This document shows, in pieces, positions 4,910-60,944 of a stretch of 64,000 nucleotides of DNA. Source of the DNA: Hygrocybe punicea (Eukaryota > Basidiomycota > Agaricomycetes > Agaricales > Hygrophoraceae); assembly GCA_963556145.1 (NCBI GenBank), contig OY744471.1, positions 2,597,590 through 2,661,589 on the forward strand, read 5' to 3'. Numbering within the stretch: the first letter of the stretch is position 1; every line of letters starts with the position of its first letter. Under the pieces are notes generated by a model, which was not told the origin of the DNA, ran no database searches, and saw nothing but the letters and a program-made list of their open reading frames with translations. Both the position numbers and the translations under genes were made by a program.

Positions 4910-5502
4910 CCACTGCTCATCATATTTATTACACAAATGCAATTATATTCAAAATATTTATACTGGCCTTAATTCTTATCAGATTCAGCTGAAAATTGAA
5001 CTGCTGACTAATATAACCATTTGGTCAAGGTGTGACCGCTCTAACCATATAAGGCAATTTCTGATATTGTATAGCAAATTTTTACTGATCGCAATGGTGA
5101 CAGTCACATGTGACCAGTCTAACCATATAAGGTAATTTTACACCATATATGCTAAATTTTGAGCAGATCACAGAAGTCATAGTCATGTTTGGCAATTGAC
5201 CTGTTACTATCTGAAAATTTCTTTTATGACTGATAATATTGTATGATCATGCACCACAGAAGAAGAGGTTAATAAAGACTCAAGACACTCTATGTAGTTT
5301 TATTTTAGTTTAATTTATATGTTGCAGAGGTGGAAGGTGAGCTTCTAGAATAATATAAAATATACAATATATACTATATGTCTTATACCAGATGTAACTT
5401 GCTTCAGGCAAGTTAATGTTATTGCATACTTCATCATAGCAGTAGGGAGGAGGAAAAAAGAACTTGTTCATGCCATGCGCAGCACTGGCCCACTAAACAA
5501 GT
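4910..5502 (-). mobile_element. H-family element, truncated (minus orientation)
   Basis: The 5' end of the family, ACTTGTTTAGTGGGCC, occurs in reverse complement ending at 5502. Going left, the copy contains the internal palindrome GTCACATGTGAC and the phrase CAGTCTAACCATATAAGG, then stops near 4910 without the CTCGTAAC 3' hairpin. It is a partial copy of the 1.26-1.31-kb elements at 48948-50255 and 52271-53530. Confidence 0.7.
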
Positions 5503-6377
5503 GATGAAATATATGTTATTGCAATATATAATTAGATTTATTATATATGATAAAGTTTATGATAATCAGTATCAAATTCAGCATATATTATGAAAAATTA
5601 CCTTATATGGTTAGACTGGTCATGTGACTGTCACTGTTATGATTAGCACAAAATTTGGTATATATTATGAGAAATTACCTTATATGGTTAGAGTAGTCAC
5701 ATGTGACTGTCACAACTTGCCCAAAATGGTCATATTAGTCAGCAGTTCAATTTTAGCTGATTCCGATCAGAATCAAGACCAGTATAAATATTTTGAATAT
5801 AATTGGAAGGTAATTTGACTTTTTTGAGGCAACCTATATTTGGGTGTTTATGTAAGCTTGTCCACACATGGCCCCAACTTGATGTTATATTCCAGTATCA
5901 GAAGTGGAATCATATCTCTAGCCCAAAAAAATTTTCTCTACAGGCAATCAACTTTATTAATTAATTAATTCGATTAATTGATTAATTAATTAATCAATTA
6001 ATCAATCAATTAATCGAATTAATTAATTAATCAATTAATCGAATTAATTAATTAATCAATTAATCGAATTAATTAATTAATCAATTAATCGAATTAATTA
6101 ATTAATCAATTAATCGAATTAATTAATTAATCAATTAATCGAATTAATTAATTAATCAATTAATCGAATTAATTAATTAATCAATTAATCGAATTAATTA
6201 ATTAATCAATTAATCGAATTAATTAATTAATTAATTAATCGAATTAATTAATTAATCAATTAATCGAATTAATTAATTAATTAATTAATCGAATTAATTA
6301 ATTAATCAATTACGAACCCTTACTGAACCAGGTCTCATAAAGAACAAGTCTTTTAATAAATTAAAAGAACTCGTAAC
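5503..6377 (+). mobile_element. H-family 3' half with minisatellite, inserted in helicase relic
   Basis: It begins GATGAAAT, like the 3' half at 48294, and ends with the family hairpin ACGAGTCTTTTAATAAATT / AAAAGAACTCGTAAC at 6377. The next base resumes a Helitron helicase reading frame (YRYLFI). The AT-rich segment before the terminus has expanded into a 25-bp tandem array (5945-6312). Confidence 0.75.
5945..6312. repeat. 25-bp AT-rich minisatellite
   Basis: About a dozen head-to-tail units of a 25-mer made of AATT/AATC tetranucleotides ending in a single G (TCGAATTAATTAATTAATC core). In other H copies the same position holds only a short AATT run, so this is a local expansion. The units are strongly self-complementary. 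Confidence 0.9.
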
Positions 6378-7224
6378 ACTACCGGTATCTTTTCATCAAT
6401 GAGTTTTTGATGATCGGCAAACATTTCTCCGTGCTTTGTCTCGGAACATTGGGATCAGAAAAGCAGGTGAGGAAGGATCTGGCACACAATCCTTTGGAGG
6501 AATCAATGTCATTCTTTGTGGTGATTTGCACCAATTTCCACCTGTAGTGACAACAAAGACTGAAGCCCTGTTTTACAAAATGACAGGCACTGAGAAGATG
6601 GAGGCACAGGTAGGATGAAAGATATATCAAGAATTCAAGATGGTTGTTATTTTGAAGACACAACAAAGGGTGACTGATCCAGTATGGCGGGATTTCCTAC
6701 ATCATTTGCGGCATGGCGAAGTTCATAGTCGACACCTGGACATGTTGTGCACTTTGATCATAGGTGAACCCCAAAGTGTGCCAACAGATCTCGATTGCCC
6801 CGATTGGTGGGATGCAGTCCTCATCACGCTACGACATGTGGTGAGAGAACATTGGAACTCAGCAGCGATTCAAAAGCACTGCAAAGATATTGGGGAGACT
6901 CTTTATGTGGTCACTGCTGAAGATACAATCCAGGAACAACTATTTATACTGCTAGAATGCATCATTTTAGCAAGCCATAAAGGGAAAGCGCACAACACAC
7001 AAAGAGACTTACCAGAGAAGATAGAGCTCATGAAAGGAATGAAAGTGATGATAACAACAAACATTGAGACAGACTTAGACATCACAAATGGAGCATGTGG
7101 TGAAATTATTGACATCAAGTTACACCCCAAGGAGCCATGCATGGAAACGGGCCCCATTGTACACTTGAAGCATGTTCCCACTTATATCCTGGTGAAACTT
7201 GATTGAACGTATGTGAGTGTTCTG
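6378..7224 (+). pseudogene. Helitron PIF1-like helicase relic (copy E), 5' part
   Basis: The reading frames match the helicase of Helitron B: YRYLFINEFLMIGK (the Walker B region, with Asp changed to Asn), then FGGINVILCGDLHQFPPV, TQQRVTDPVW, MKVMITTNIETDLDI and HVPTYILVKLD. A frameshift near 6430 and stops at 6616-6618 and 7204-7206 break it. The Walker A part is absent because the H element occupies the upstream side. The frame resumes at 14074 after the hAT-like insertion. In life such a helicase unwinds DNA during rolling-circle transposition; this copy is dead. Confidence 0.85.
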
Positions 7225-7236
7225 GCAGGTTTCAGG

Positions 7237-18661: not shown

Positions 18662-18664
18662 TAT

Positions 18665-19185
18665 TTATAATGTGCAATGAATGTTATGGTGATCAATATA
18701 AAATTTAGCAAACTTTATATAAAATTGCCTTATATGGTTAGACTGGTCACATGTGACTATCACCATCGTGATCAACAAAAAATTTGGTATATAATATCAA
18801 AGATTACCTGATATGGTTAGATCAGTCACATGTGACTGTCACACCTTGCCCAAAATGGTTATCTTAGTCAGCAGTTCAATTTTCAGCTGATTCTGAGAAG
18901 AATTAAAGTCAGTATGAATATTTTGAATATAATTGGAAGGTAGTTTGTATTTTCTGAGAAAACCCATATTTGAATGCTTATGTAAGCTTGTCCACACATG
19001 GCCCCAACTGCATCTTATTTTCCTGTATCAGAAGTAGAATCATATCTCTTGCCCAAAAAATTCTGTCTATAGGCGATCAACTTTATCAATTAATCAATTA
19101 ATCAATTAATTAATTAATTACGAACGCTCACTGAACCAGGTCTGATAAAGAACGAGTCTTTTAATAAATTAAAAGAACTCGTAAT
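18665..19185 (+). mobile_element. H-family 3' half, truncated, second copy
   Basis: Head-to-tail with the previous copy. Ends AAAAGAACTCGTAAT. Helitron A homology starts about 20 bases further on. Confidence 0.75.
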
Positions 19186-19204: not shown

Positions 19205-20149
19205 GTTGGCATTAGTAAGCAAATACAAATAGATGTAAACAAAGACAAATAAGGTACTCTCTTAGAAGTATTTTCACTGGGCATGTGTAAGTGATGTTTT
19301 AACTTAACCATATAAAAAACAAAAACAAATAAACAAACCCAATATGGTTAGATTACTTTATATTCCAACTTTGGTCTTGGTCAATTTTATTATGTAATCT
19401 TGATTACATAATGATTAGTCAGATCACCATTTGAACCTTATTGCGCTTTTGCCTCTTGAACCTAAACCACACCTTGCCATTTGGTACGTTAAGTTTACCT
19501 TTTTGGCTCGTTTAAGCTCAGTTTGCCATATTTAGACTCCTAAAAACTGTTTTCTGGATCAGGTGATGTGCCCAGACCATTCAGGGTCCAATGCTGACAT
19601 AAGATTTCCTTTTTTAGATACAAACTCAAAAATTCTTCGGATTTTTGTGTTTTTGATTTTCAGTGGCTCTGTTTTATTTTCTGGACCACTGGTAATGTCT
19701 TCAATTGGTATATCTTGTTGTTTGTTAACATAATCTATCATTTTACAGCCCATCTCCCATTCAATTTTCAAAGTATCTATAAATTTCATGTGTTTTCCCC
19801 TTTTTTGTTGGTTTAAGCTCAGTTTTCTGTATTCCGACTCCAAAAAAAAGCGCTCTGGATCAGGTGATGTCCCTGCACCATTCAGGTTCCAATGCTGAAG
19901 TAATCTTTCCTTTTATAGACAAAAAAGTCGAAAATTCTTCAGATTTTCATGCTTTTTCTTTTCTCTGGCTCTGTTTTGTATCTTGGACCACTGGTAATGT
20001 CTTTTATTGGTGTCAATTATCATTAGTTGACATAATCTATCATTTGATAGCCAATCTTCCTGTCAACATTCAAAGTATGTGGAAATTTCACATTTTTAGA
20101 TTCTATAAGCTCATTTCTTAACCTACAGGTTTACAGTGGATCTTTTCTG
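19205..20149 (+). repeat. Helitron A 5' region with about 300-bp tandem repeats
   Basis: Units starting near 19555, 19855 and 20150 share TCTGGATCAGGTGATG and the phrase CCATTCAGG.TCCAATGCTGA. An inverted copy of the whole arrangement lies at 47280-48250, next to the same protein N-terminus. The block therefore belongs to the element and probably includes its promoter. AG/GTGATG at each unit is splice-donor-like. Confidence 0.7.
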
Positions 20150-20868
20150 GCTCAGGTATGAATATCTTACCATCTATGATCAAATGTTTACCAAATATAT
20201 CCTTACATAGCCTTAAAATGCGAAAATTTGTGGATTTTTTCGATTTTTACTGCTTTATGTACTGGAATTTGTATTGGTATGTTGTTTATTCATCTTCTTC
20301 AGATATATTTGACATATCCATATTGTCATCCAGCTTTTATGATCAAAAAAACTATAAACCTGTTCACAAAAATGGTAAAAATATCATCCATGTCACAATG
20401 TCTTATGATTTTTATCATTGCAATGTCTTGGGCACAATGTGCTGTCATTTGGATTGGCCTTGTGCCTTCTGCAAATATCATACAAAATGTCCATGTCACA
20501 CCAACTGTCTCTGTAATACCAAACGTCATTCTGTGCCCTGTTACTCTGAATTTTTATGAAGAAAATCTTCCCAAGGATGAAAATCACACTTGTTTGCCCA
20601 GCTTAACCCCATTTCAACATATTGGTCTTCAGTCTACTTCTCCATTTACACCACCAAACCCTGAAAAACCCACAAATACCCACAACAGTACTGAATTTGT
20701 CTTTCCTAGTTGTCAATCTGCCCATACCCCTTTCCTATTAGAACTATATGCCAGAGTTGTCTTAAACATGTTTGATTTGCTTGCTGTGTAACATTGTACA
20801 ACTAGCATTGCTAATAAATGCAGGTATATCAAGTTAAAGCTTCAACAGAATATGTTCAGAAAACATGA
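20150..20868 (+). pseudogene. Helitron A protein, N-terminal segment
   Basis: The frame from 20228 (MWIFSIFTALCTGICIGMLF) to a TAA at 20789-20791 continues past it as CTTSIANKCRYIKLKLQQ and is cut at KHD by Helitron B. The second copy (minus, 46570-47277) has TAT instead of TAA and reads through, showing the stop is secondary. Hydrophobic stretches suggest membrane segments in this frame. A different frame (20400-20530) is strikingly rich in Cys and His (CCHLDWPCAFCKYHTKC) in both copies, so the true coding frame or splicing of this part is uncertain. Function unknown. Confidence 0.5.
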
Positions 20869-20906
20869 CTAGAGGGAAGGGCCACCTTCGGTGGCGCAAC
20901 CTTGCT
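20869..20906 (-). other. Helitron B 3' terminus (hairpin + CTAG)
   Basis: Minus strand: GCAAGGTTGC, then GCCACCGAAGGTGGC, then CCTTCCCT and CTAG|T. The GCAAGGTTGC block also occurs at the 5' terminus of the same element. Confidence 0.85.
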
Positions 20907-22111
20907 CCTTTTTTTGGCAGTCTGATAGATTTGGACTTGAAAAACATGCGACGTTTACTTAGAATACAACCGATGTGTACTTAAAATAGCAAGGCATCCA
21001 GAATTCACTTCTTTTTCATCAAAATTCGGGTGTGTTTTGGTGACAAGTACTTCAGTGGTCAGCAAGACGTGATGATGCGTTAAGCCTTGTCGTTGAAATT
21101 CTGCTGCTTGGACGAGATGAGGAATTCACGGTAGGGGTGAAATATCGATAACGCACGTGGACCAGTCGTTGAGAGAATGGGAAGCGGGGTAGTCCCCAAG
21201 GAAAGAAAAGAAATGTGGTGAGCGTTCAATTTTGAGGCTGGCAGAAGCATGCGTGTTTGGGGACCGGTTTTTCAATGAGATGAGTCCAGCGCGACATCTT
21301 CAAAGAAGTACATGACGTCGTGGCATTAATGACGTTGTGGCAGAGGGTAATCCGAGTCGGTGGTTATTCAGCGTGAAGATTGTGATCAGATGTTGTTACC
21401 GGGATGACGTGCCGTGTCTCACCAGTCGTGTCTCACCTTTTATTAAGCCATGAGGCTTGCATGGATTTGAGAATCGATACAACTATGCCAACTCCAATTG
21501 ATTTCACTGCGTTTTTCCACGTCCTCCGTTTTGTCGACGGTGAGGATTTGCACATTCACGAAGTGCAATGGGCACCAAGGTCATCAGAAGAGCAACAAAA
21601 TTCATATCGGATGTTTGAAACGAGTTTAGGGGTGGTGCATTTTCTTTCCGCAAGCGGGGGACACGATTAACGGGAATCGTGTCAGTTTGTTCACACGCAT
21701 CGCATATATTACACGGGTTCATTTTTGGTTTTCGTCTTTGATTGTGAGGCGGTTTTGGCTGATGAACAAGTGTAGGAAAATGGGTACCAACAGTTGAAGG
21801 AAAGGAGTGGGATTTGACGTTTTCTTGACCGGTGACCTTCGACAGATAGCAGGAGAGTGGTTTATTTATAGATCAAGGCGGAGACTGTTGGAAAAGCGGT
21901 AATTACAGAAGAGGAGGTACAAAACAGTGAGGGCAAGAAAAAAACGTAACATTTTTTTTTTGCGGTTTTCGTTTCCGTTGACGCTCTGATTGATGTCGAA
22001 AGAGAAGGCGTTGGCTGTTGGGGACGGAATAATGACTTGTAGTAGTACAAATAAGAGAATGCATGTGAAAAACGTAGTGAATCGATGTCTCAGCCTCGGG
22101 TTTTTTTTTGG
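20907..22111. other. 3' flank inside Helitron B
   Basis: A minus-strand frame at 21504-21722 begins MNPCNICDACEQTD, a CxxCxxC cluster, and could be a small accessory exon in the same direction as the gene upstream of it. It has no recognisable fold. A + strand frame at 21404-21670 overlaps it. No other structure was found. Confidence 0.3.
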
Positions 22112-23358
22112 TTACAGCCTCTGTTTCTTTTTCCCTTTGAGGCTGTCCTCGATGTCGAAGGGGTCTTTTTTTAACAGACGTTTCTTGATGGGTGAATGAG
22201 AGCTGTGAGTGGGAGGCAGTACAACGCATAGGGATACGATGTCGGCCACGAAAACATCACGGCTCGGATGCGCCTTTTCTTGCACCAAGTATTTTTGAAC
22301 AGTGAAACGGGCAGCGACCGTTGCTCCCTTTAAGGTGTCAATGTACTCACGTGGTCCAACGAGGTCACGATCGATGTTAAATGCCGGGAGAGGCTTGACG
22401 AAGTAGGGTCCTTCCATGCTTTTCAGCGCATCGCGGGCTTGGTCACTGTCTACAGGCCAATCACACAGTTTCGTTTCTTCAGCGAAATTGGCTGGATTGT
22501 GTGAGATTAAATGTAGGTAGTAGGTGATGTGAAAGTAGTCACCTCGATTAATATTGTTGTACTCTTCGTTGGAAGCTTGGACCCCTCTCTGTGGAGTAGA
22601 TGAGTTATACAAGGATACGTGGTCTGCGAAAACAGTCCTACATAAAATGGTTGATGTCGCAATCTGATTTTCGTCATTCCACCCTCGCCTTCTTTAATGA
22701 TGCCTTCACTAACCGATCCGGGATTTTTGGCGGTGTTCATTAATTTTCAAATCGTGGAGACAGTGGTGTTGAAGTCTTTGACGAGAGTTGGGGAAGAGAT
22801 CGCAGTGCCAGTGCATGTCAGCTTTATGTCAGCGAATCTTTTAGCGCCTCCGACGTCTCCTCGCCACATTGCGTCGGGCATCAACCAGAAGTCGTCTTCA
22901 GTGATGTGCATGAGGAGCGTTAGTTCTGCTGACTCTCCAGCGTCACCTCCTATTGTAGGCAAGATGGGGGTGACAATGTTTTCGTTACGTTCCGGTTCAT
23001 GTGTGACCAGCCGAAGGGTTCGGCCATCTCTCATCCAGCGTAGCATGTTGCCGACGTCAGGATCGCCCACATATGAACAAGAAGCAATCAGAGCGGTCTG
23101 CCACACATCCAATTTGTGTTCTTGTTGATCGACAGGCCCGTCTGTAACTGAAGGTGGGATGCCAAGTACTCGGATGCTGTTTGGTCTGTCAACATTGCAA
23201 AACTATGGCGACGAGAAAACTCACTTGACTTGTTTTGAAGCTCCAACCCTCGAATCGACAAAGTGTGCCTGAATGTTCTTTGGAGACTCTTCGGAGGCAG
23301 TTTCTCTTGTACGATCGTTTGCGGAGATGGTGGTGGATGATGAAGCTTTAGAAGTCAT
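22112..23358 (-). pseudogene. Helitron B accessory gene, unrecognised, introns retained
   Basis: Start ATG at 23358-23356 (MTSKASSSTTISAND). A 39-nt intron (23224-23186, GTGAGT to GACAG) joins in phase to PNSIRVLGIPPSVTDG and DVWQTALIASCSYVGDPD. The protein continues through MHITEDDFWLMPDAMWRGDV to FNTTVSTI, where a TGA (22749-22747) sits in place of a probable TGG (KLMNTAKN follows). A second intron candidate lies near 22713-22638 (GTTAGT...TGTAG), although its phase does not fit exactly. The last exon (FADHVSLYNSS, GDYFHITYYLHLISHNP, to KKQRL stop at 22112) is open. About 400 residues in total, rich in charged residues, with no known domain. It is divergent from the replicase, with about 120-230 bp between the two. 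It may be captured host sequence or a Helitron accessory protein. Confidence 0.5.
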
Positions 23359-23479
23359 GACATGGGAGAGATGGGCATTTCAAGGGTGGGCATGGTCTTT
23401 TTTACACAACCAATGCATCATGGCAAAATTTAACTGCGAACAAGACCGAAACTTTGTAGGTCTCAGTTGGTGATCGTTC

Positions 23480-24790
23480 TTGTGGTGTAGACGTCATGCG
23501 AACGTCATTCGGCGCTGTTTTTTACAGGGACGAAGGGGTGTTTTTTTTTTCCGTTTCCCTTTTGATGCAATTAAGGAACTGTCTCAGTTTCAACGAATGG
23601 TGAACGCTCACGATCTACGCTACTTGACGGTCCCAGAGTTGTTAACCTTGTCAAGGGGACATGTGCAATTCGGTCGTGGTCAACGAACGAGAGTGGCTGT
23701 CATTCAAAGAATATTAGCAGTTGGCTCTTCTTCGTTACACGACCACCTACAAACGGCGGCGACTGCGAAACGACGACGTGTGGAGGAATCAGAGGAGATG
23801 AAAGTTTTACAACAAAAACGGAAAGTCGAAGAAAAGTACGAAAGACGAAGGAAAATCATAAAAATCGACCGAACTTACTGGGATTCGGATACGAGTGGTT
23901 TCCTGAAATTGCCTTCAGAAACACGATTGCATGAATGCTACAGAGAGTTTTATGAGGCAACTTCTAACGAGGCCGTTCAGATCAGTGTCTGTGCTGTATG
24001 CGCGCGAGAGCTCAGCATACGTGGGGACTGTTTACATCGAAAGCGTTTATCAGATTTGGCAAACTCACATCGCTTGATTCCAAAATGGTTTCAACCTGCA
24101 CATGAACTATTCCATCAATGACTACTCCTTCCTCATGCTGTTAATGCAGGACCAACGATGGCCGATACGTGGATCACTGTATGCGAAGCTTGTCTCACTT
24201 CTTTGAAGGAGAAAAGGGAGAGTCCTCCTCCAATGTCTTTGGCAAATCGTTTGTGGATAGGCGAAGTTCCGTGGGAGTTAAAACGACTCACTTTTGCGGA
24301 GCAGTTGTTAATCGCGCTTTTTTATCCTCGAGTGTACGTCTTCAAGCTATTCCCTAAACTGAAGTTTCCTGTGAAGGAAAACGCAGCGTTACAGAGTGCC
24401 ATGGGTGGATCTGTGAGTACCTATGATTTAGATGTGGATGGGGCAAGTGCCATGATTGAAGGAGACCTCTTACCACGAAGACCACATATATTGGCTAGTG
24501 TGATCTCTGTTACCTTTATCGGGACGAATCCGGTTCCTAAAACATGGTTACGGACCACGTTCAAAGTGCATCGAAATGTCGTTCACGATGCATTGCGATG
24601 GTTGAAAAACCATAATGTCAAGTATTATGGGCACATGAAGTTGTCAATGGAAAACCTTTCTGAACTTCCTGAAGATGATGTTCCTGGCGGGGTGCTTGGG
24701 ATCGTTCGACATTCGAATGATGTTGGCATTCTAGAAGAAGAAAATGGAGGGTATCTGCCTTCACATGATGATCCTGTAGGAGGTATTTGA
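23480..24790 (+). pseudogene. Helitron B replicase-helicase, SAP-like and DUF6570-like part
   Basis: A likely start is the Met near 23599 (MVNAHDLRYLTVPELLTLSR). This first segment resembles a SAP DNA-binding motif (LTVPELL...RVAVIQRIL). A basic coiled segment rich in KRKVEEKYERRRK follows, then a CxxC pair (ISVCAVCAREL), TWITVCEACL, and a DUF6570-like signature (MSLANRLWIGEVPWEL, FAEQLLIALF). A TGA at 24119-24121 follows LFHQ; the frame continues intact after it. The 24790 end is at a TGA after GGI, near a possible intron donor. The family product is the N-terminus of a rolling-circle transposase. Confidence 0.75.
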
Positions 24791-24944
24791 ATTTCAACGT
24801 AATCTTGGACAAATTTTGATATATCCGAATTAGTTGATGCGAGGGACAGCGGACGTGACAACGTGGAGAGGTCCCCCGATGAGGAGGAAGGTTTGTTTCT
24901 GAACTCGATGAATTTACCGTCAAATTGATACAGCGGAAAATGAT

Positions 24945-38384: not shown

Positions 38385-38387
38385 TCA

Positions 38388-41642: not shown

Positions 41643-43452
41643 AAAGCTCATGATGAAATAAACAGTGATGATGAGTTAGATGTCTTGAAATCTGAGCCAC
41701 AAACTGCAACTCACAAAAAAACTTCGAGATCCAATGTATCTACCAGTAATGACTTGAGCATAGAATTTGATGATCTGAACATCAAAGATGATGACAATTT
41801 CATAGAATGTGATTCAGAGGACAATGAGTCTGATAGCACTGAGTCTGTCCAAGAAGTTACCAAGCTTTTCCTAGAGAATCACCCATTATATGAAACACAC
41901 TGTATAGAATTCAGTGAAAAGGAGAAGCATGTTGTTCCAAACTTTGTTGGTGGTTCATTGCCCAGATGTGATAGAGGGGACAGAGAATACTATTGCACCA
42001 CAATGCTCACTCTGTTCAAACCATGGAGATCTGGCAATGACCTGAAAAGTGAAGTGGAATCATGGGATGAAGTGTTCACTTATCATGAATTCACTGAAAG
42101 GCAATTAGAAATTATGGACAACTTCAATCTGAGATATGAATGCCTTGATGCCAGAGATGACTATGCTGCTCAGCTTAGACAAGGAGCAGTGTTAGATGGT
42201 ACTTGTCCTCAATTTATGACTTCAGACATGATTTCACACTTGGATGATGACAACATTCAAAATGGTGGTGACTTTGGAGATGACAATTATGAGCAGGACA
42301 AAAACAATGCAGATTATGGCACTAACAAATACTCTGAACTTGGTCAACATGGTAGACTGATCAAAGCTCAAATGGATGCCACTGAAAACATTGTCAGAAA
42401 CATTGGTTGGCTTGATCTATATTTTCATTGATGAAGTCTCAATGCTGTCTTGTCATGATCTCTACAAAATCAGTGCAAGACTAGCTAAAGCATTGAATAT
42501 ACATGACATGCCATTTGGTGGAATTAACATGATATTTGCTGGAGACTTTGCTCAGTTACCCCCAGTTGGTGGCACACCATTGTACAGTGGAACAGTTGGC
42601 ACTCAGATCAGATCAGCCTTGACAACACACTCTCAGGAAACTGCAATTGGAAATGCACTCTGGCATCAAGTGACCACAGTTGTGATTCTTAGAGAAAACA
42701 TGAGACAGAGGACCCAAACAGCTGAGGATGCATTGTTCAGAACTGCCCTTGTTAACATGCGCTATGGCAAATGTACTGCACAGGACATTCAATTTTTGAG
42801 AACCAGAATTGCAGGCAAACGTCCAGACCAGCCCAATGTTGCCTCTAAGAAGTTTAGAAATGTTCCTGTCATATGTGGCATTCACTCACAAAAGGATCAA
42901 ATCAATCTTCTTGGATGTGAAAGATTTGCTTCTGACACCAACCAGAACTTGACCAACTTCTACTCTATTGACAAGTGGGGAAAAGACAAGGAGTCTGGTG
43001 TGAGAAGCAAGTCACAATCCAAATCTAAAGCAGTGCATCAATCCAGTGACATTGATTTTGATACACAAAGGGATATATGGAAAGTGCAACATGCTGCAAC
43101 TGATAACTTTGCTGGGAAACTCTCATTGTATCTTGGTATGCCTGTGATGCTTTGCAACAATGATGCCACTGAACTCTGCATTATGAAAGGACAAGAAGGA
43201 TTTGTTGTTGGCTGGCAGTCAATGAAAGCAAATCATGGCAAAAGAGTACTTGACACCTTGTTCATTGAACTGGACAGACCTCCAAAGCTGGTGCAGATTC
43301 TAGGATTCCTGACAATGTAGTGCCCATTGTAAGAAGCACCAAGACAATTCAGTGTGTATTTCCCAGTGACCTGAAGGAATTCATTGAGAGACAACAAGTT
43401 TGGGTGCTTCCTAACTTTGCAATGACTGCTCATGCTGCTCAAGGAAAAACAC
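41643..43452 (+). pseudogene. Helitron A helicase, Walker A deleted
   Basis: A linker rich in Asp/Glu is followed by NHPLYETHCIEF, NFVGGSLPRCDRGDREYY and LTLFKPWRSGNDLKSEVESW. At about 42415 the sequence jumps from NIVRNIGWLDL directly to the Walker B region YIFIDEVSMLSCHDLY. The stretch that should contain the P-loop (GxGGTGKS) is missing, and a frame change occurs at the joint. FGGINMIFAGDFAQLPPVGG, TVVILRENMRQR and KLSLYLGMPVMLCNNDATEL then follow. A frameshift near 43300 leads to the QQVWVLPNFAMTAHAAQGKT motif, cut by the solo LTR. It cannot hydrolyse ATP. Confidence 0.85.
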
Positions 43453-43697
43453 TGTTGGATTCTGATGAGCCACTCTACATAGAGTATGGACTTGGTCAAG
43501 TTCCAAGTAGCTTACTAATCTGTTTGTACTTATTTGTTCCAAAAGCGGACATAGCCTGGGAGTAGAGTCAACAGTCTCTAGTATTGACTGTTGCCTCTAT
43601 CCCAGGTAAGTAGTATAGTTTCTGTATCTGTTATATATTAGTATTGACTGTTGCCTCTATCCCAGTCCTACATGAGCTTAGGCCTTACCTTTCAATA
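43453..43697. mobile_element. Solo-LTR-like insertion, 245 bp, TSD AACAC
   Basis: AACAC flanks it (43448-43452 and 43698-43702). It begins TGTTGGATTCTGATGAG, a common Copia LTR start, and contains a duplicated AGTATTGACTGTTGCCTC. Removing it restores the conserved helicase string HAAQGKTHPFNVVHLNSC in frame. Confidence 0.7.
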
Positions 43698-43702
43698 AAC
43701 AC

Positions 43703-44290
43703 ATCCATTCAATGTTGTGCATTTGAACAGTTGCTTCAACCACATGTCATATTATTCTTCATTGTCTAGAAGTGCTTCTGCTGCTGGAACTGTAATAATT
43801 CAAGGCTTTGATATTAAAGTGAACACTAGAGGTTGTTCTGGATATCTTAGACAAGAATTTAGAGAACTAGAATTGCTTGATGAGATTACCAGGATCAGAT
43901 ATGAAGGAAAATTGCCTGATTACATTCAAGCTGGTACACGCTCTGTTATGCTCAGAAGCTTTCAGCAGTGGAAGGGAATTCACTATGTTCCTGCCCAAAC
44001 TGATAATGCTATTAAATGGTCACCAACTGATCCATTGCTATTGGCTCATACCATCCCTGATAGCCCATGGCAATTAGTTGAAAAAGGCAAAGGCAAACAG
44101 AAAGCAGCTGTAATTGCAACTTCATTTGTTCCAGCAAAAGGCTCAGTTGCTATTGGTTCAACCCAAAAACATTCACTTGACACAAACAATGAACTAGCAG
44201 CTAAAAGGCCTCGGATCACAAAAGACCATGTCATCAAAGGATCCACAAGCAAGCAACAGATCATTAACTCCCCAGCTGGACTGATCTGGG
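43703..44290 (+). pseudogene. Helitron A helicase C-terminus and linker
   Basis: PFNVVHLNSCFNHMSYYSS and LSRSASAAGTVIIQGFD are the last helicase motifs. LRQEFRELELLDEITRIRYE and FQQWKGIHYVP follow, then a basic linker with KRPRITKDHV, and NSPAGLIWD where the H element at 44291 cuts the frame. The uninterrupted relative at 45496-45700 (minus) continues RNDYSCAYDSLLVIL. Confidence 0.85.
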
Positions 44291-44747
44291 ACTTGTTTAG
44301 TGGGCCAATGCTGCGCATGGCATGAACGAGTTCTTTTTCCCCCCTCCCCACTTCTTTGCTGAATTAACAAAATTGCATAAAGCATGTTACATATGGCATA
44401 AGATACATAGCATGTGTTGCATATTGCCTATTGATCTACTAAGCCCACCTCCCACCTCTGCCACACATAAAGTAGCATAAAATAAATAAATCTACATAAG
44501 AGTGTCTTGAGTCTTCATCAACCTCCTCTCTACCTGCCATCTCCCCTGTGTTGCACCATCATGCAACACTCTCAGCCATGAAGCAATTGCTCAGGGAGCA
44601 ACAGGTCAACTGCCAAATACAACTGCCCCCCAAACAGTGTGCTGACAATTAACTCACATTTGCTCAACCCTACTTCTCCATGACCTTGAATGCTACACAA
44701 CAGATTACCACATGAAGAAAGCCGTGCTTGACCTCAAGGAGGATGCT

Positions 44748-45545
44748 CAAAGGCTCTGAGCATAAATAGCTAGTACTAGGTTTCTATTTCTACAGTGTCT
44801 GATATCATGGTCTGAAAGTTGTGTAAGGTCAGTCTCTCTGGAACAAGAGTTGCCTGTAATCATTCCATCATGATACCATACTTGTTTCTGTGGAGTAATA
44901 ATACGTGATGTGAAATGATATTGACCATGATATACAATGCCTCTAAGTTCTAATGTCTTTGTGTCAGTCTCTGAAACAAATTCTAGTCTATGACTGGTTT
45001 CAATGTTTTTGAATGGATACTCTAGAACAAGAATGTGTGGTGCTTCATTATAAAATACAAGTTGTTTCATTCTGCTGTTGCAATCAGGACATCTTCTATT
45101 GGTTTTCTGTGACAAGGTATCAATCCACTTCATGGTAGACTGTTTAATGGTGTCATCAGCATGTAACACATAGCCTAGTCTGTCATCAATGGGTTCTTCT
45201 GCAAAGTCACATTAAGAACATTCATGTTGAGAAGAGGCTACAATGTTATTGACTTTAAACAACTCCATAGCCAGATTTGCAACACTGATGCCCACAGTGC
45301 CTCTAGGAAAGTCTGTAGGATTCATGTTATGCAGTGTAGTTCTAAGGTGATCTCTTAGCTGTTCAAATGCCACATTTTTGTGCAACACCTGTGGAAAACC
45401 ATGAGACAATGTGGTCAAATGATCATTCATGCTTCTGAATACTGTGGACCACTCTGCATGATTGTCTTTCCACAGATTGAACAGAATGACCAACAATGAG
45501 TCATATGCACAGCTGTAGTCATTTCTATCCCAGATCAGTCCAGCT
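44748..45545 (-). pseudogene. Ubiquitin-specific-protease-like C-terminal domain (copy C)
   Basis: Minus-strand order: GLIWDRNDYSCAYDSLLVIL (about 45530-45475) resembles a Cys box, with the Cys inside NDYSCAYDS. DFPRGTVGISVANLAMELF, one TAA near 45211-45213, a zinc-ribbon-like CxxC (RRCPDCNSRMKQLVFYNE) and EAPHILVLEYPF follow. GIVYHGQYHFTSRI and VWYHDGM (about 44950-44860) resemble the His box. The frame closes at YAQSL, 44757. Such proteases remove ubiquitin; a protease fused to a Helitron helicase might protect or process the transposase, but that is inference. Only one stop interrupts it. Confidence 0.65.
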
Positions 45546-45705
45546 GGAGAGTTAATGACCTGTTGCTTGCTTGTGGATCCTTGGTTGACATGGTCTTTGG
45601 TGATCCGAGGCCTTTTAGCTACTGGTTCATTATTTGTGTCCAGTGAATGTTTTTGGGTTGAACCAATAGCAACTGAGCCTTTTGCTGGGACAAATGAAGT
45701 TGCAA

Positions 45706-47277
45706 TTACAGATTTTGCTTTGCATGTTTGTCAGGATTTTCACTCTGAAAATTTTGTACAGCTGCCAGATTTTGCTTTGCATGTTTGTCAGGATTTTCAC
45801 TCTGAAATTTCTGCACAGCTACTAGATGTTGTTTGTCATGTTTCTCTGGATTTTCACTCTGATATTTCTGCACAGCTGCTAGATGTTGTTTGGCATGCTT
45901 ATCAGGGTGTTCATTGTGAAATTTCTGCACGGCTGCTAGATTTCGTTGTGCATATTTGTCAGGATGTTGTGCTTTAAATTTATTGACTGCACTGGTATTT
46001 GAGGTTTTCTTGTGAATTGCAATTACTTCTTCATTAATAAATTCAAAGATTGATACAAATTCAGGACAGTTGGTGCACACATGATTCTGTATTGCAGTTT
46101 GAATTGATGCCTGATTCATTTTTGAGTGGACAAGAATGCTATGATGAGCTGCAATTACTTTCAAGTTGGCAATGGTCAACTTTGGAATCAACAATTCAAA
46201 TGGGTGATTTACAATTACAAGTGATTTTTCAGATGATGATTCCAATGAGAGTGCTTCACTTTTTGGCATGTAAGAGTGGAATTTATATTTAGCTGCATCC
46301 ATACTAGCATTGTCATTGGTTGAAGTAGGCATTAGTTCATGGAATGAGAATATATTTGCTTTGCCTCCACCAATGCATTCAATATCAAGGTTAGAATTAC
46401 AGGATATATTTTCAGACTTGAAAATGTCATATAATTTCGAAGTTTTATTGCAAATATAGTGACCAGCCATTTGAAAAGCTAGAAAATGATGCAGAACTAG
46501 GACAAACAGCAGTATGGCTCCATTTGCTAATATAGGTAGTTTGTTTACATATTTTAAATAAGCTCTGAAGTCATGTTTTCTGAACACATTCTGTTGAAGT
46601 TTCAACTTAATATACATGCACTTATTAGCAATGCTGGTTGTACAATGATACACAGAAAACAAATCAAACATGTTCAAGAAGATTCTGGCATATAGTTCAA
46701 ATAGAAAAATTGGATGAGCTGATTTACAACTAGAAAGAACAAATTCAGTGCTGTTGTGGATATTTGTGAATTTTTCAGGGTTTGGTGATGTGGAGGAAGA
46801 AGTGGACTGGAGACCAATATGATGAATTGGGATTAAATTTGGTAAATAAGGGGGATTTTCATACTTTTGCAAATTGTCTTTATAAAAATTCAAAGTAACT
46901 GGGCATAGAATGACATTGTGTATGACAGAGACAGTTGGTGTGACAGGGACATTTTGCATGACATTTGCAGGAGGCACAAGGCCAATCCCAATGACAGCAC
47001 ATTGTGCCCAAGACATTGCAATGATAAAAATCATAAGACATTGTGACATGGATGACATTTTTAACATTTTTGTGAACAGGTTTATAGTTTTTTTGAAAAT
47101 AAAAGCTACATAATAATATGGATATGTCAAATATATCTGGAGATGATCAATAAACAACATACCAATACAAATTCCAGCACAAAGAGCAGTAAAAATCGAA
47201 AAAATCCACAAAATTTCACATTTTAAGGCTATATATGGAAATATTATGTCAGCATGTGATCTTAAATGGTAAGACAT
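45706..47277 (-). pseudogene. Helitron A derivative, N-terminal region (copy C)
   Basis: A continuous 523-codon frame. Hydrophobic N-terminus (ILWIFSIFTALCAGICIGML), LQQNVFRKHDFRAYLKYV, ECIGGGKANIFSFHELMP, SAP-like LTIANLKVIAAHHSILVHSK with HVCTNCPEFVSIFEF, then about five 19-residue repeats. At 45706 the last repeat (KHAKQNL) is joined to the far C-terminal linker (VIATSFVPAKGSV) through a CTG microhomology, losing the DUF6570, replicase and helicase. It is the best-preserved N-terminus of the family and the reference for stops in Helitron A. No role is known for the truncated product. Confidence 0.6.
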
Positions 47278-47279
47278 TC

Positions 47280-48293
47280 ATACCTGAGCCAGAAATGAAC
47301 CACTGTAAACCTGTAGGTTGAGAAATGAGCTTATACAATCAAAAAAGGTGAAAAAATGTGAAATTTCCACATACTTTGAATGTTGACGGGGGTTCGCTGT
47401 CAAATGATAGATTATGTCAACCAATAATAATTTACACTAATAAAAGACATTACCAGTGGTCCATGAGACAAAACAGAGCCAGAGAAAAGAAAAAGCATGA
47501 AAATCCGAAGAATTTTCAACTTTTATGTCTATAAAAGGAAACATTATGTCAGCATTGGACCCTGAATGGTCTAGGCACATCACCTGATCCAGATCGCTGT
47601 TTTTCGGAGTCTGAATACAGAAAACTGAGCTTAAACAAGCCAAAAAGGTGAAAAAACATGAAATTTGTACATACTTTGAAAATTGCAAGGGAGATGGGCT
47701 GTAAAATGATATATTATGTTAACAAACAACAAGATATACAAATTGAAGACATTACCAATGGTCCAGGAAAGAAAACAGAGCCATAGGAAATAAAAAGCAC
47801 AAAAATCCGAAGAATTTTGCACTTTTATGTCTAAAAAAGGAAATCTTATGTCAGCATTGGACCCTGAATGGTCCGGGCACATCACCTGATCCAGAAAACA
47901 TTTTTTCGGAGTCTAAATATGAAAAACTGGGCTTAAACGAGCCAAAAAGGTCAAAAAACTCGGACTTTACGCACTAAATGGGGAAGGTAGTGGTTCAGGT
48001 TCAAGAAGCAAAAGCACAATAAGGTTCAAAGTCTGGGTTCAAATGGTGATCTGACTAATGATTACATAATCATGATTATGTAAGAAACTTGACCAAAACC
48101 AAAATTGAAATACAAAGTAATCTAACCATATTGGGTTTGTTTATTTGTATTTGTTTGTTATGTGGCCAAGTTGTAACATCACTTATAAATGTCTAGTGAT
48201 AATATTCATAAGAGAGCATATTATTTGTCTTTGTTTACATCTATTTGTATTTGTTTACTAAAGCTCAAATAGGACCACGAAGACCAAAACACA
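47280..48293 (-). repeat. 5' region of copy C with about 300-bp tandem repeats
   Basis: Inverted counterpart of 19205-20149. Units are marked by CACCTGATCCAGA (47581, 47881) and TACCTGAGCCAGA (47281). Homology to Helitron A ends near 48250. Confidence 0.7.
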
Positions 48294-48863
48294 TGATGAA
48301 ATGTGTATTAGTGTGTTATATAATTAGATTTGTTACATGCAATGAATGTTATGGTGATCAATATAAAATTTAGCAAACTTTATGTAAAATTGCCTTATAT
48401 GGTTAGACTGGTCACATGTAACTGTTACCATTGTGATCAGCAAACAATTTGGTATATAATATCAAAAATTACCTGATATGGTTAGATCGGTCACATGTGA
48501 CTGTCACACCTTGCCTGAAATGGTTATCTTAGTCAGCAGTTCAAATTTCAGCTGAGTCTGAGAAGAAATGAAGTCAGTATGAATATTTTGAATATAATTA
48601 GAAGGTAGTTTGTATTTTCTGAGACAACCCATATTTGGATGCTTATGTAAGCTTGTCCACACATGGCCCCAACTGCATCTTATTTTCCAGTATCAGAAGT
48701 AGAATCATATCTCTTGCCCAAAAAAATTCTGTCTATAGGCAATCAACTTTATTAATTAATCAATCAATTAATTAATTAATTAATTAATTAATTAATTACG
48801 AACCCTCACTGAACCAGGTCTGATAAAGAACGAGTCTTTTAATAAATTAAAAGAACTCGTAAC

Positions 48864-48947
48864 AGAAATGACTACAGCTGTGCATATGACTCATTGTTGG
48901 TGATTGTGTTCAATCTGTGGAAAGACAATCATGTGGAGTGGTCCACA
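48864..48947 (+). pseudogene. Helitron A fragment with protease-like Cys box
   Basis: 84 bases between two H elements encode RNDYSCAYDSLLVIVFNLWK and DNHVEWS. This continues GLIWD at 44290 and is followed after the next insertion by VFTKMNDHL. Confidence 0.85.
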
Positions 48948-50255
48948 GTTACGAGTTCTTTTAATTTATTAAAAGACTCGTTCTTTATCAGACCTGGTTC
49001 AGTGAAGGTTCGTAATTAATGTTTTTGCATCGCCTATAGAGCAATTTTTTTTGGGCAAGAGATATGATTCTACTTCTTATGCTGGAATGTAACATAAAAT
49101 CGGGGCCATGTTGGGAGTGGCTTACATAAGCATCCAAATATGGGATGTCTCACACAAGACAAATTACCTTCCAATTATATTCAAAATATTCATACTGCCT
49201 TCAGTTCTTATCAGAATTAGCTGAAAATTGAACTGCTGACTAATATAAACATTTCGGGCAAGGTGTGACAGTCACATGTGACCAGTCTAACCATATAGGG
49301 TACTTTTTGATATTATATACCAAATTTTTTGCTGATCGCAATGGTAATAGTCACATGTGACCAGTCTAACCATATATGGTAATTTGGCATAATATATGCT
49401 AAATCACATGCTCATCATATTCATTACACAAATGCAATGATATTCAAAATATTTATCCTGGCCTTAATTCTTATCAGATTCAGCTGAAAATTGAACTGCT
49501 GCCTAACATTATCATTTCGGGTCACATGTGACCACTCTAACCATATAAGGCAATTTCTGATATTGTATAGCAAATTTTTTGCTGATCGCAATGGTGATAG
49601 TCACATGTGACCAGTCTAACCATATAAGATAATTTTATACCATATATCCTAAATTTCGAGGTGATCACAGGAGTCATAGCCACGTGTGACTACCATTACT
49701 ATATATAGAAATATCAGCCATATAAGCAGAAATTAGTGTAACCCAGATGATATAATGATATTTTTACTTAAAACATATAATTCAATGTGATATCGCTGTA
49801 TATATTATATACTAATTATATATTTCAAGCAAAATCACTTATTGATGTTTGTAATAATCATACAAATAAATATTCAATAATAGAAACAAGACTTTGTTCA
49901 TGCCATATGCAACATTGGTCCACTCAAGCACAGCTGTCTTCATGTTATCATCTGTTGTGCAGCAAAGTTATGGAGAAGTAGGGTTTAGCAAATGTAAGTC
50001 AATTGTTATCATACTGTTTAAAGACAGTTGTATTTGACAGTTGATGTATTGTGTTGCTCTCTTTTTTGGCTGAGAATATTGCATCATGATGAAGCAAAGA
50101 AGACATGACAGTGGGAGAGGAGGTTGAGACATGCTATGCAGTTTTATTTTTTTTACTTTTTATATTGCTATGATGAGAGGTTGCTATGATGAAAGTGAGG
50201 ATAGGAAAAGAAGAACTCGTTCATGCCATGCGAAGCATTGGCCCTCTAAACAAGT
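48948..50255 (-). mobile_element. H element, complete, 1.3 kb, minus orientation
   Basis: Read in plus it begins GTTACGAGTTCTTTTAATTT and ends GGCCCTCTAAACAAGT. The host frame EWSTVF-TKMNDHL is recovered when it is removed; the paralogue reads CCACAGTATTCAG. It contains four or five GTCACATGTGAC palindromes. A 64-codon frame (49787-49981) recurs almost identically in the inverted copy at 52545-52739. This reflects recent copying rather than demonstrated coding. Confidence 0.8.
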
Positions 50256-50510
50256 ATTCACAAAGATGAATGATCATTTGAGCACATAATCTGGCTATGG
50301 AGTTGTTTAAAGTCAATGACATTGTAGCCTCTTCTCAACATGAATGTTCTCAATGTGACTTTGCAGAAGAACCCATTGATGACAGACTAGGCTATGTATT
50401 ACATGCTGATGACACCATTAAACAGTCTACCATGAATTGGATTGATACCTTGTCACAGAAAACCAATAGAAGATGTCCTGATTGCAACAGTGGAATGAAT
50501 CAACAAGGCA
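50256..50510 (+). pseudogene. Helitron A protease-like domain, remnant
   Basis: FTKMNDHL is joined, after an internal deletion of about 165 bases relative to copy C, to NLAMELFKVNDIVASSQHEC, DDRLGYVLHADDTIKQSTMN and RRCPDCNSGMN. After about 50510 the sequence no longer matches the domain (the His-box part is gone). Confidence 0.8.
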
Positions 50511-52270: not shown

Positions 52271-53530
52271 ACTTGTTTAGTGGGCCAGTGCTTCGCATGG
52301 CATGAACGAGTTCTTCTTTTCCTCTCCTCACTTTCATCATAGCAACCTCTCATCATAACAATATAAAAAGTAAAAAAAATAAAACTGCATAGCATGTCTC
52401 AACCTCCTCTCCCACTGTCATGTCTTCTTTGCTTCATCATGATGCAATATTCTCCGCCAAAAAAGAGAGCAACACAATACATCAACTGTCAAATACAACT
52501 GTCTTTAAACAGTATGATAACAATTGACTTACATTTGCTAAACCCTACTTCTCCATAACTTTGCTGCACAACAGATGATAACATGAAGACAGCTGTGCTT
52601 GAGTGGACCAATGTTGCATATGGCATGAACAAAGTCTTGTTTTTATTATTGAATATTTATTTGTATGATTATTACAAACATCAATAAGTGATTTTGCTTG
52701 AAATATATAATTAGTATATAATATATACAGCGATATCACATTGAATTATATGTTTTAAGTAAAAATATCATTATATCATCTGGGTTACACTAATTTCTGC
52801 TTATATGGCTGATATTTCTATATATAGTAATGGTAGTCACACGTGGCTATGACTCCTGTGATCACCTCGAAATTTAGGATATATGGTATAAAATTATCTT
52901 ATATGGTTAGACTGGTCACATGTGACTATCACCATTGCGATCAGCAAAAAATTTGCTATACAATATCAGAAATTGCCTTATATGGTTAGAGTGGTCACAT
53001 GTGACCCGAAATGATAATGTTAGGCAGCAGTTCAATTTTCAGCTGAATCTGATAAGAATTAAGGCCAGGATAAATATTGTGAATATAATTGCATTTGTGT
53101 AATGAATATGATGAGCCGTATGTGATTTAGCATATATTATGCCAAATTACCATATATGGTTAGACTGGTCACATGTGACTGTCACACCTTGCCCGAAATG
53201 TTTATATTAGTCAGCAGTTCAATTTTCAGCTAATTCTGATAAGAACTGAAGGCAGTATGAATATTTTGAATATAATTGAAAGGTAATTTGTCTTGTGTGA
53301 GACATCCCATATTTGGATGCTTATGTAAGCCACTCCAAACATGGCCCTGATTTTATGTTACATTCCAGCATAAGAAGTAGAATCATATCTCTTGCCCAAA
53401 AAAAATTTCTCTATAGGCGATGCAAAAACATTAATGAATTAATTAATGAATTAATTAATTAATTACGAACCTTCACTGAACCAGGTCTGATAAAGAATGA
53501 GTCTTTTAATAAATTAAAAGAACTCGTAAC
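52271..53530 (+). mobile_element. H element, complete, 1.26 kb
   Basis: It begins ACTTGTTTAGTGGGCCAGTG and ends AAAAGAACTCGTAAC, cutting the retroelement between CCCTTGAAA and TACACAAGGG. Near-identical to 48948-50255 in inverse orientation, giving a pair of inverted elements 2.0 kb apart. Confidence 0.8.
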
Positions 53531-58520: not shown

Positions 58521-58760
58521 CACCATTGGGACTGAGGAATATTTTGAGTGTCTGCCACCTTCCTGTGTGACACCATTGGGACTAGGGGATGTTTTAAGTG
58601 TCTGCCAGCTTCCTGGGCTACACCATTGGGACTGGGGATATTTTGAGTGTTTGCCAGCTTCCTGTGCAGCACCATTGGGACTGGGGGATATTTTGAGTGT
58701 CTGCCAGCTTCCTGCGTGACACCATTGGGCCTGGGGGTCTGTGTCTGCAAGCTTCCTGTG
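58521..58760. repeat. About 57-bp tandem repeat, five units
   Basis: Each unit contains CACCATTGGGACT.GGG, ATTTTGAGTGTCTGCC and GCTTCCTG. The flanking frames are repeat translations. Confidence 0.85.
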
Positions 58761-59908
58761 CGGCACTGTAAAGGCGAGGTCGGGGTGGCTGCGGAATAGT
58801 AATCCTAAGCCTGTGGGGGTCAGCGTAGAAGTGACTAGGAATAGTCTAACAAGCTTCAGTAAGATGATAGGATATAAATGGTAAGAAGCCGCCAAATAAA
58901 CTACTGAAATCTATCGAGACCGGTCGAAGCCGACAAAGCCGACGATGTCGGGTACGGCGGGTCGGGTGTTGGGTGATGAGGGACGTAGAGATAAAGGCGG
59001 TAGAACGATGGGGAGAGCGTCGAGGAATCCGACGAGTAATGTGTGCGATGGATTTTACTGAGAGACTAATTCTCAGAGAGAGGAAATGGGGGAACTGGTT
59101 TCTTATTTTGAGATGGCGCTTGGGCACCGTTTTTATACTACAAATTTCTGTACCTAGCTTCGGACGAGAGTCCTCGGCCGATGAGAGAAAACAAAGGAGA
59201 ATAAAAATGGACAAGTAGGAAGAGGGTTGCGAGGCGACGATGACAGGGAAAATGGGTGGAAGATATAAAAACCATAAAAGATGCAATATACTTTACTATA
59301 TCCCCATAAGGGAGACGCTAGGCGTGAATAAGGCAAGTCCGATGTCGGGATCCCAGTCCGATGAGATCTATCTTTGATATTTGAAGTTCCGTGAGTTTAG
59401 GAGATAGACCGACCAGGTACGTGAGCAGCCGTGCTAGTCGGTATGCATCGGGTTGCGTCAGGTTCGAGCATAGATTGCGAGAGACGTCGGGTTCGAGCGG
59501 ATTCGCTAGATATCGATGTTACGGCCTCAGAGGGTCAAGGACCCTCTACAGCACCATTGGTATTATGTTGGTGTCATATGATCTTATGGTGTGTAGAACA
59601 GTGTTTTGTCTTTCTAGGGACTGACTTTGGGTGATAGGACCTTAACTTCACAATACGTCAGGTTCTCATGACTGGAACATGTGTTGTATTGTTGCTAAGT
59701 TTTGATTTTCTCTCTTCTGTGAACTGAAGTGCTGTGCTAATCAATTTTCTTCTTTTGCTTTGTCTGGAGTTACCATAGAGGCAGACCAATAGGGGCCCCT
59801 ATTGGTTTGTAGCTATGGTAGCTTCCTTTAGGATAGGGAGGATGGAGGAGAAGTGGGCCAGCCAGCGGTTTTGCTATTAGTCTAACAGTAGGCTCAGTAA
59901 ATTTTGTA
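58761..59908. other. No gene recognised
   Basis: Open frames (for example 58846-59286 minus) have no domain and overlap one another. The region has an extended hairpin near 59771-59820. Confidence 0.45.
59785..59806. repeat. Perfect 22-bp palindrome with extended stem
   Basis: ACCAATAGGGG and CCCCTATTGGT form an exact palindrome. TACCATAG and CTATGGTA outside it extend the dyad. Confidence 0.8.
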
Positions 59909-60944
59909 GTTACGAGTTCTTTTAATTTATTAAAAGACTCGTTCTTTATCAGACCTGGTTCAGTGAAGGTTCTTAATTTAATTCATTAATGTTTTTGCAT
60001 CGCCTATAGAGAAATTTTTTTTGGGCAAGAGATATGATTCTACTTCTTATGCTGGAATGTAACATAAAATCGGGGCCATGTTTGAAGTGGCTTACATAAG
60101 CATCCAAATATGGGATGTCTCACACAAAACAAATTACCTTCCAATTATATTCAAAATATTCATACACCCTTCAGTTCTCATCGGAATTAGCTGAAAATTG
60201 AACTGCTGACTAATATAAACATTTCGGGCAAGGTGTGACAGTCACATGTGACCAGTCTAACCATATAAGGTACTTTTTGATATTATATACCAAATTTTTT
60301 GCTGATCGCAATGGTAACAGTCACATGTGACCAGTCTAACCATATATGGTAATTTTGCATAATATATGCTAAATCACATACTGCTCATCATATTCATTAC
60401 ACAAATACAATTATATTCAAAATATTTATCCTGGCCTTAATTCTTATCAGATTCAGCTGAAAATTGAACTGCTGCCTAATATTATCATTTCAGGTCAGAT
60501 GTGACAGTCACATGTGACCAGTCTAACCATATAAGGCAATTTCTGATATTGTATAGCAAATTTTTTGCTGATCGCAATGGTGATAGTCACATGTGACTGT
60601 CACACCTTGCCCGAAATGTTTATATTAGTCAGCAGTCCAATTTTCAGCTAATTCTGATAAGAACTGAAGGCAGTATGAATATTTTGAATATAATTGGAAG
60701 GTAATTTGTCTTGTGTGAGACATCCCATATTTGGATGCTTATGTAAGCCACTCCAAACATGGCCCCGATTTTATGTTACATTCCAGCATAAGAAGTAGAA
60801 TCATATCTCTTGCCCAAAAAGAATTTCTCTATAGGCGATGCAAAAACATTAATGAATTAATGAATTAATTAATTAATTACGAACCTTCACTGAACCAGGT
60901 CTGATAAAGAACGAGTCTTTTAATAAATTAAAAGAACTCGTAAC
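59909..60944. mobile_element. Palindromic H element with two 3'-type ends
   Basis: It begins GTTACGAGTTCTTTTAATTT and ends AATTAAAAGAACTCGTAAC, so both tips are the 3' hairpin end of the family and the ACTTGTTTAGTGGG end is absent. The arms mirror each other from GAAGGTTC and CATCGCCTATAG inward to the GTCACATGTGAC repeats. Confidence 0.8.

Follow-up and report, generated by a model that had tools for sequence, protein, structure and literature searches.

Probable Helitron2-type rolling-circle transposons with a G/A-T target and a large Rep/helicase in Hygrocybe punicea

Rolling-circle transposons of the Helitron2 type (Bao and Jurka 2013; Chlamydomonas Helitron-1_CRe and others; PMC3627910) are defined by a 5′ repeat of 8-15 bp that lies 0-2 bp from the end within a terminal hairpin, and by a 3′ repeat that is subterminal at about 20-30 bp. 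Asymmetric terminal inverted repeats are also described for the FoHeli elements of Fusarium oxysporum (PMC5148889), for which composite copies with two 5′ termini have been proposed. The Helentrons, with their DINE-1/HINE forms, have asymmetric subterminal repeats and short non-autonomous copies (PMC4067079), and HELPO1 and HELPO2 of Pleurotus ostreatus (PMC4289320) are rolling-circle elements of a basidiomycete that insert without duplication. Here we describe the H family of the basidiomycete Hygrocybe punicea, which is represented by three copies with both ends (A, B, and C) and several partial ones in a 64-kb stretch of DNA (the window) on contig C39 (OY744471.1) of the 92.2-Mb assembly GCA_963556145.1. 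We conclude, with a probability of about 0.92, that these copies form a family of rolling-circle transposons of the Helitron2 type, in which autonomous members encode one large Rep/helicase; the family adds to the Helitron2 group and is not a new class. Contigs and other loci are labelled C1 onwards and L001 onwards, and elements are described on their coding strand, which is opposite to the orientation used in a preliminary description of this DNA.

The H family agrees with Helitron2 (PMC3627910) in the position and hairpin of the 5′ repeat, the subterminal 3′ repeat, the 5′ T, the Rep/helicase, and the lack of duplication around full-ended copies, but differs from it in a 3′ repeat at 34 bp, a G/A-T rather than TTTT^T/C target, and a weak 3′ hairpin. 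FoHeli3-5 resemble H in their 5′ hairpin and in a length of about 9-11 kb, and lack a hairpin at the 3′ end; the FoHeli ends (TGCCT...CTCCTGT or TCAG...ATTTT) differ from those of H, as does the FoHeli1/2 target, TNAT^A, printed with T in the figure legend (PMC5148889). HELPO2 ends in CTTG, and the HELPO elements are unlike H in their Rep/helicase of ~1,400 aa, their AT target, and their T[C/G] 5′ end (PMC4289320).

The preliminary description recognised the three window copies and their common ends, with limits that agree with ours to within 1 base, and a 12-mer located about 34 bases inside one end and 2-3 bases inside the other; its starts lie 34 and 2 bases inside the ends. This 12-mer (ACGAGTTCTTTT) has 13 window matches with at most one mismatch, as compared with 0.28 expected and a maximum of 2 in 100 shuffles, and in copies B and C it is present at the 34-base end as the one-base variant ACGAGTTCTTCT. 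The hairpin had been assigned to the 3′ end, and this orientation has to be inverted because the Rep/helicase frame runs in the opposite direction and because in the published Helitron2 layout the terminal hairpin that bears the repeat stands at the 5′ end (PMC3627910, PMC5148889). On the coding strand the layout is thus 5′ TTACGAGTTCTTTTAATTTATTAAAAGACTCGT (the terminal hairpin including the 5′ repeat) ... AAAAGAACTCGT followed by 34 nt finishing in AACAAG 3′, with the repeat 2 bp from the 5′ end and 34 bp from the 3′ end. The termini are 5′ TT and 3′ CAAG, both partly fixed by the search motifs. The 5′ hairpin is predicted to fold as DNA at −8.8 kcal/mol (z −4.4 against shuffles, of which 1/200 was equally good), and an artificial strand joining both repeats at −16.2 kcal/mol (z −6.5), about −4.5 of which comes from the 3′ hairpin. 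This predicted fold fits, without proving, the pairing of repeat with repeat that Bao and Jurka proposed to open the 5′ hairpin (PMC3627910).

No autonomous partner had been seen previously, and a search for a long copy carrying a Rep/helicase was suggested; such copies are present in the genome, and a broken one lies in the window. A genome search with the Pfam family Helitron_like_N gave 151 matches on thirteen contigs (150 of 724 candidates scored), and by-eye comparison of the lists places about ten of them on the strand opposite to an H end and 4-8 kb away from it. Two full-length elements were measured, of 10.6 kb (a frame of 2,855 codons) and 10.75 kb (2,807 codons). The former, on C39 (L121/L138), is 10,604 bp long; its ends are both intact, its own frame is open over 2,855 aa, and it is inserted in the frame of another copy. 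The latter, on C33 (L039 and L040), has its 3′ end (the 5′ end of the earlier orientation) at position 101. Its open frame of 2,807 codons lies on the minus strand (8976 to 556) and is followed by a hairpin end that a nested H copy of 1.35 kb has split. The hairpin end is in place at five of seven candidate full-length loci (L039/L040, L121, L122, L125, and L126), interrupted by an insert at L039/L040 and L122, and all five have a Helitron_like_N match between the ends on the opposite strand. Among eight loci compared (L001 to L008, where L001 is copy A), seven match the C-terminal part of the frame in a stretch that lies at most about 1.4 kb from the 3′ end (again the 5′ end of the earlier orientation).

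The C33 frame product, P0001, has Pfam matches to DUF6570, Helitron_like_N, and PIF1, and contains an HUH motif (LHMH, 1185), a Y2-like motif (YISDY, 1393), and a Walker A motif (1932), so that a Rep (HUH/Y2-like) and a helicase are combined in one protein between H ends. Matches among solved structures (18 sequences) are confined to the PIF1 helicase part. A homologue search returned 573 proteins at E up to 1e-3, nearly all of the 120 listed carrying both Helitron_like_N and PIF1, which makes this a common protein family in public data. Pfam gives no match, at E up to 1, for the C-terminal 308 aa or the N-terminal 700 aa. Before DUF6570, at about residues 425-615, there are about nine imperfect tandem repeats of ~19 aa (NLAAVQKF.SENP.KHAKQ), also with no Pfam match, and the C-terminal ~250 residues contain the Cys/His motifs NDYSCAYDSL and WYHDGM together with CxxC pairs. 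These latter motifs resemble those of ubiquitin-specific proteases, with no match in Pfam for this part of the protein.

The preliminary description proposed a non-autonomous rolling-circle family with Helentron-type (Helitron2) features, and the linkage of the ends to a Rep/helicase frame, together with the lack of duplication, supports the rolling-circle assignment. The asymmetric repeats are of the Helitron2 type, but a strict Helentron, in which the Rep/helicase is fused to an apurinic-type endonuclease and targets TT, and of which the H copies would be the HINE/DINE-like non-autonomous form, is very unlikely. Helentrons do have asymmetric subterminal inverted repeats and a terminal hairpin as well (PMC4067079), but no endonuclease family is found by Pfam in either the whole P0001 frame (E up to 0.01) or its C-terminal 308 aa (E up to 1), and the target is mainly G/A-T, with TT in a minor role.

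To sample the family more widely we recognised genome copies by exact terminal motifs, so that conservation within these motifs is by construction. There are 393 exact 3′ ends and 424 exact hairpin ends in the genome, and reversed-pattern controls gave 0. Partners were sought within 20 kb for the matches listed (95 3′ ends and 100 hairpin ends), and 65 of the 95 3′ ends are paired with an exact hairpin end. Fifty pairs span no more than 2.8 kb; one was dropped, its 3′ end being common to another pair, and 49 were fetched (19 whole and 30 as ends), which with the three window copies and less one duplicate gives 51 distinct junction pairs, all on contigs C1-C3 and C39. Of the 22 copies measured whole, copy A has 4,571 bp and the others 943-1,345 bp; these 21, one of them a duplicate, have a median identity of 91.7% over 210 pairs. 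Most sampled copies have retained both ends but lost internal sequence, and measure about 0.9-1.4 kb.

The flanks share 0 bp at 38 of the 51 junction pairs and 1-4 bp at the others, with two sharing 4 bp. The earlier limit of at most 2 duplicated bases can be sharpened to none, since the flanks at clean empty sites are joined exactly, nothing being duplicated or lost; the placement is ambiguous by one base. Clean paralogous empty sites were found for 12 copies, along with two hairpin nestings (C33 and C41) and one composite (C3), giving 15. Seventeen copies had a spanning match, and five of them (L050, L055, L056, L067/068, and L077/078) were not counted, since they lie in tandem sequence or in that of the element itself, or show a gap where the flanks meet. 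The empty site of copy A, GGGA^CAGAAATG, is uninterrupted in L137 and identical over 20 bases at the junction, and none was found for copy C in the sequence examined (the window and the fetched loci). The junction A is present in empty sites, and so belongs to the host or, put differently, leaves the element end ambiguous by one base. Neither of two contrary outcomes named in the preliminary description was found: there is no consistent duplication of 4 bp or more, and no DDE family is among the Pfam hits of P0001, the one partner frame scanned.

These data also bear on whether H could belong to another class altogether (a Crypton or Starship tyrosine recombinase element, an IS200/IS605-like element, or a DDE miniature inverted-repeat transposable element) with a captured or adjacent Helitron gene. 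A terminal hairpin with a two-base target does resemble IS200/IS605 on paper, but both ends flank the Rep/helicase frame at several independent loci, one intact-ended copy lies inside the frame of another, the inverted repeats are at unequal distances from the ends, and duplication is absent. We give this explanation almost no chance. DDE transposons and their miniature derivatives were rejected on the lack of a fixed-length duplication at the 51 junction pairs, and Crypton, Starship, and IS605-like elements on the position of the Rep/helicase between the ends. The unnamed class raised as an alternative in the preliminary description is unsupported, and the layout is that of Helitron2.

In the earlier orientation, all 51 copies are preceded by A, and the hairpin end is followed by C in 33 copies, by T in 11, by A in 7, and by G in none. 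Coding-strand G before the target T is enriched (33/51 as compared with 10 expected from the NT dinucleotides of the sequence examined) and C is absent (0/51 against 11 expected on the same basis); T precedes the target T in 7/51. Genome-wide, all 393 exact 3′ ends have AC before TTGTTT, such that A precedes the element and the coding target is T, and the 424 exact hairpin ends comprise 220 A^C, 160 A^T, 2 A^G, and 42 others, which on the coding strand place G (220), A (160), or C (2) before T, the other 42 including T. From the junction base counts in the 51 copies and in the 393 and 424 exact ends, the coding-strand target is [G>A>T]T, with a strict T and a first base looser than in the canonical AT. 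The AC target of the preliminary description is one strand of this G/A-T target; A^C is indeed the commonest junction, but not the only one.

The target also speaks to the explanation of H as a canonical Helitron1 with drifted ends, which we consider extremely improbable. The lack of duplication, the acceptance of A^T, and a 3′ CAAG loosely like CTRR would suit it, and a further group in the genome does have a 3′ CTAG^T end and a Rep/helicase of 1,384 aa. However, insertion strictly between A and T is contradicted by an A side in only 160/424 ends, although the T side is present in 393/393. The H 5′ end is TT rather than TC, with a terminal hairpin and repeat that are absent from Helitron1 by definition (PMC3627910). 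Moreover, P0001 has DUF6570 whereas the CTAG-group protein shows none, and the two are only 22-23% identical over 439 and 112 aa. This second Helitron group (L133-L135), whose protein has no DUF6570 match, comprises three copies ~99% alike with a 3′ end reading ...CCTAAACCTAG, the CTAG^T following a hairpin.

The Helitron2 assignment rests on end structure and gene linkage. The ends, their linkage to the Rep/helicase frame, the junctions, the empty sites, and the target base counts are direct results, and several further ones weigh against the assignment. Of the 95 listed 3′ ends, 30 are without an exact partner end within 20 kb; two of the seven full-length candidates lack a complete hairpin end (L123 has half of it and L124 has no match); and L006 is without the C-terminal frame stretch in the comparison of L001-L008. 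The 3′ hairpin stem is predicted at −4.5 kcal/mol with z −0.5, and 46/200 shuffles are equally good. The 3′ repeat at 34 bp is slightly past the ~20-30 bp of Helitron2, although within the ~20-40 bp of FoHeli, and the target differs from the T-rich site of the Chlamydomonas Helitron2. No Helitron2 family with a G/A-T target was found in the literature surveyed, as far as its available portions go and with most subscription journals outside it; for a maize case, insertion at GT was raised as one of two readings (PMC2267711). Lastly, circles or tandem products would be expected to leave head-to-tail junctions (on the coding strand, ...CTAAACAAG then TTACGAGTT...), and none was found in 145 loci or the window.

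If the H family moves as a Helitron2, the HUH/Y2 Rep would nick one strand at an element end, the helicase would unwind it, and one strand would be replaced. The endpoint of transfer would be set when the 5′ repeat leaves its hairpin and pairs with the 3′ repeat, as Bao and Jurka suggested, and the strand would enter a [G/A/T]T dinucleotide of the host without duplicating it. The Rep/helicase of the autonomous members would presumably also mobilise the short copies. We infer the nicking, the strand transfer, any circular or strand intermediate, this mobilisation by the partner proteins, and the mobility or activity of the family as such from sequence.

What the preliminary description took to be an interrupted host gene with uninterrupted paralogues is the broken frame of the autonomous partner itself (Table 1). 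Copies A and B are inserted within this frame, and the 86 bases between them continue it.

Table 1. Features of the H family in the 64-kb window.
Feature	Coordinates	Strand	Remarks or basis
Copy A	44292..48862	− (coding; earlier orientation +)	4,571 bp, internally deleted Helitron2 copy; both ends and A^C junction
Copy B	48949..50254	+ (coding; earlier orientation −)	1,306 bp, non-autonomous; empty-site paralogues exist
Copy C	52272..53529	− (coding; earlier orientation +)	1,258 bp, non-autonomous
Copy A 5′ terminal hairpin	48830..48860	−	contains 5′ asymmetric inverted repeat, 2 bp from end
Copy A 3′ asymmetric inverted repeat	44326..44337	+	34 bp from 3′ end
Copy A 3′ terminal 34 nt	44292..44325	−	coding strand TCATGCCATGCGCAGCATTGGCCCACTAAACAAG; weak GCCA/TGGC-type hairpin
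Copy B 5′ terminal hairpin	48951..48981	+	sequence
Copy C 5′ terminal hairpin	53497..53527	−	sequence
5′ hairpin end, additional copy	6344..6376	−	terminal motif
3′ end, additional copy	5452..5501	+	target T at 5502
Partial copy	18663..19184	−	terminates in 5′ hairpin at 19184; another hairpin end at 18661
Two partial H copies, head to head	59910..60943	.	5′ hairpin end on each outer side
Broken autonomous element	19213..50504	+ (coding)	pieces match C33 element positions 766-10180; several insertions interrupt
Piece aligning with most of Rep (Helitron_like_N) part of C33 frame	34889..35873	+	alignment and domain coordinates

H elements are also found inserted in one another. Copies ending against half of the hairpin of another copy occur in at least five right-side and at least two left-side places (exact junction patterns in the genome), which are lower bounds in that the left pattern missed C41 through one mismatch. 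The C33 and C41 cases are clean nestings in the hairpin loop. The element on C3, read at its two ends and in one inner stretch, has two stacked 5′ termini. Because its outer flanks join without a gap in paralogues, at window positions 37416-37118 (92.6% over 299 bases) and in L137 (87.7%), the doubled element was most likely inserted as one unit, which is what had been proposed for Fusarium copies with two 5′ termini (PMC5148889). For a case on C1 the flanks match different repeats, and no join was found among 40 scored candidates. Two more of the places are on C2. The head-to-head pair in the window has no 3′ end, and no empty site in the window and fetched loci. That the hairpin loop is a preferred insertion site is only suggested by these sequences. 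A tentative extension, which we regard as somewhat doubtful, is that H represents a loose-target Helitron2 lineage (strict T, G over A) whose 5′ hairpin loop is an insertion site, giving composites with two stacked 5′ termini that can move as a unit.

Among the matches listed, the 100 3′ ends bunch in a single mid-chromosome block on each contig (C1 at 4.2-6.7 Mb, C2 at 2.9-4.6 Mb, and C3 from 5.4 Mb), with a 3′-end outlier on C2 at 0.85 Mb and further hairpin-end outliers on C1 at 1.96 Mb and C2 at 0.51 Mb. The blocks are perhaps pericentromeric; Helentrons and DINE-1/HINE elements are reported to be most abundant in centromeric and heterochromatic regions (PMC4067079).

Several other elements are present in or near H copies. 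Window positions 20871-32451 contain a clean 11.6-kb insertion of another Helitron family into the broken autonomous copy, the joined flanks matching L039 over 298 bases. On the minus strand this element starts with TTACCTTGCTTGCAAGGT (a hairpin) and ends with CCCTCTAG before T; DUF6570, Helitron_like_N, and a weak PIF1 match are on the plus strand, opposite to the orientation of the ends. It has DUF6570 in common with P0001, with 29% identity over 264 aa. A 0.12-kb element, TCACCTTGCTTGCAAGG...CTAG, lies between A and T in an H hairpin loop on C36 (L122, 1686-1808); its ends also look like an asymmetric inverted repeat, and its 3′ end motif has 7 exact genome matches. At window positions 35874-40503 the broken copy contains an insertion with an 8-bp flanking repeat (GTGACACC) and inverted ends (TAGTGTTTT/AAAACACTA), as from a cut-and-paste transposon that we take to be hAT-like. 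The inner part of this insertion contains the empty site of the C3 composite.

The H family, a modest addition to what is known, now has an identified partner, a corrected orientation, and, from hundreds of exact ends, a defined target. Its self-nested copies and several hundred near-identical ends constitute a convenient natural data set on Helitron2 end function. The C3 composite, with its two 5′ termini and clean empty site, bears on repeat pairing as the determinant of the endpoint; if such composites do move as a unit, the 16-nt TTACGAGTTCTTTTAA beside another 5′ end would suffice to end strand transfer without a hairpin partner of its own.

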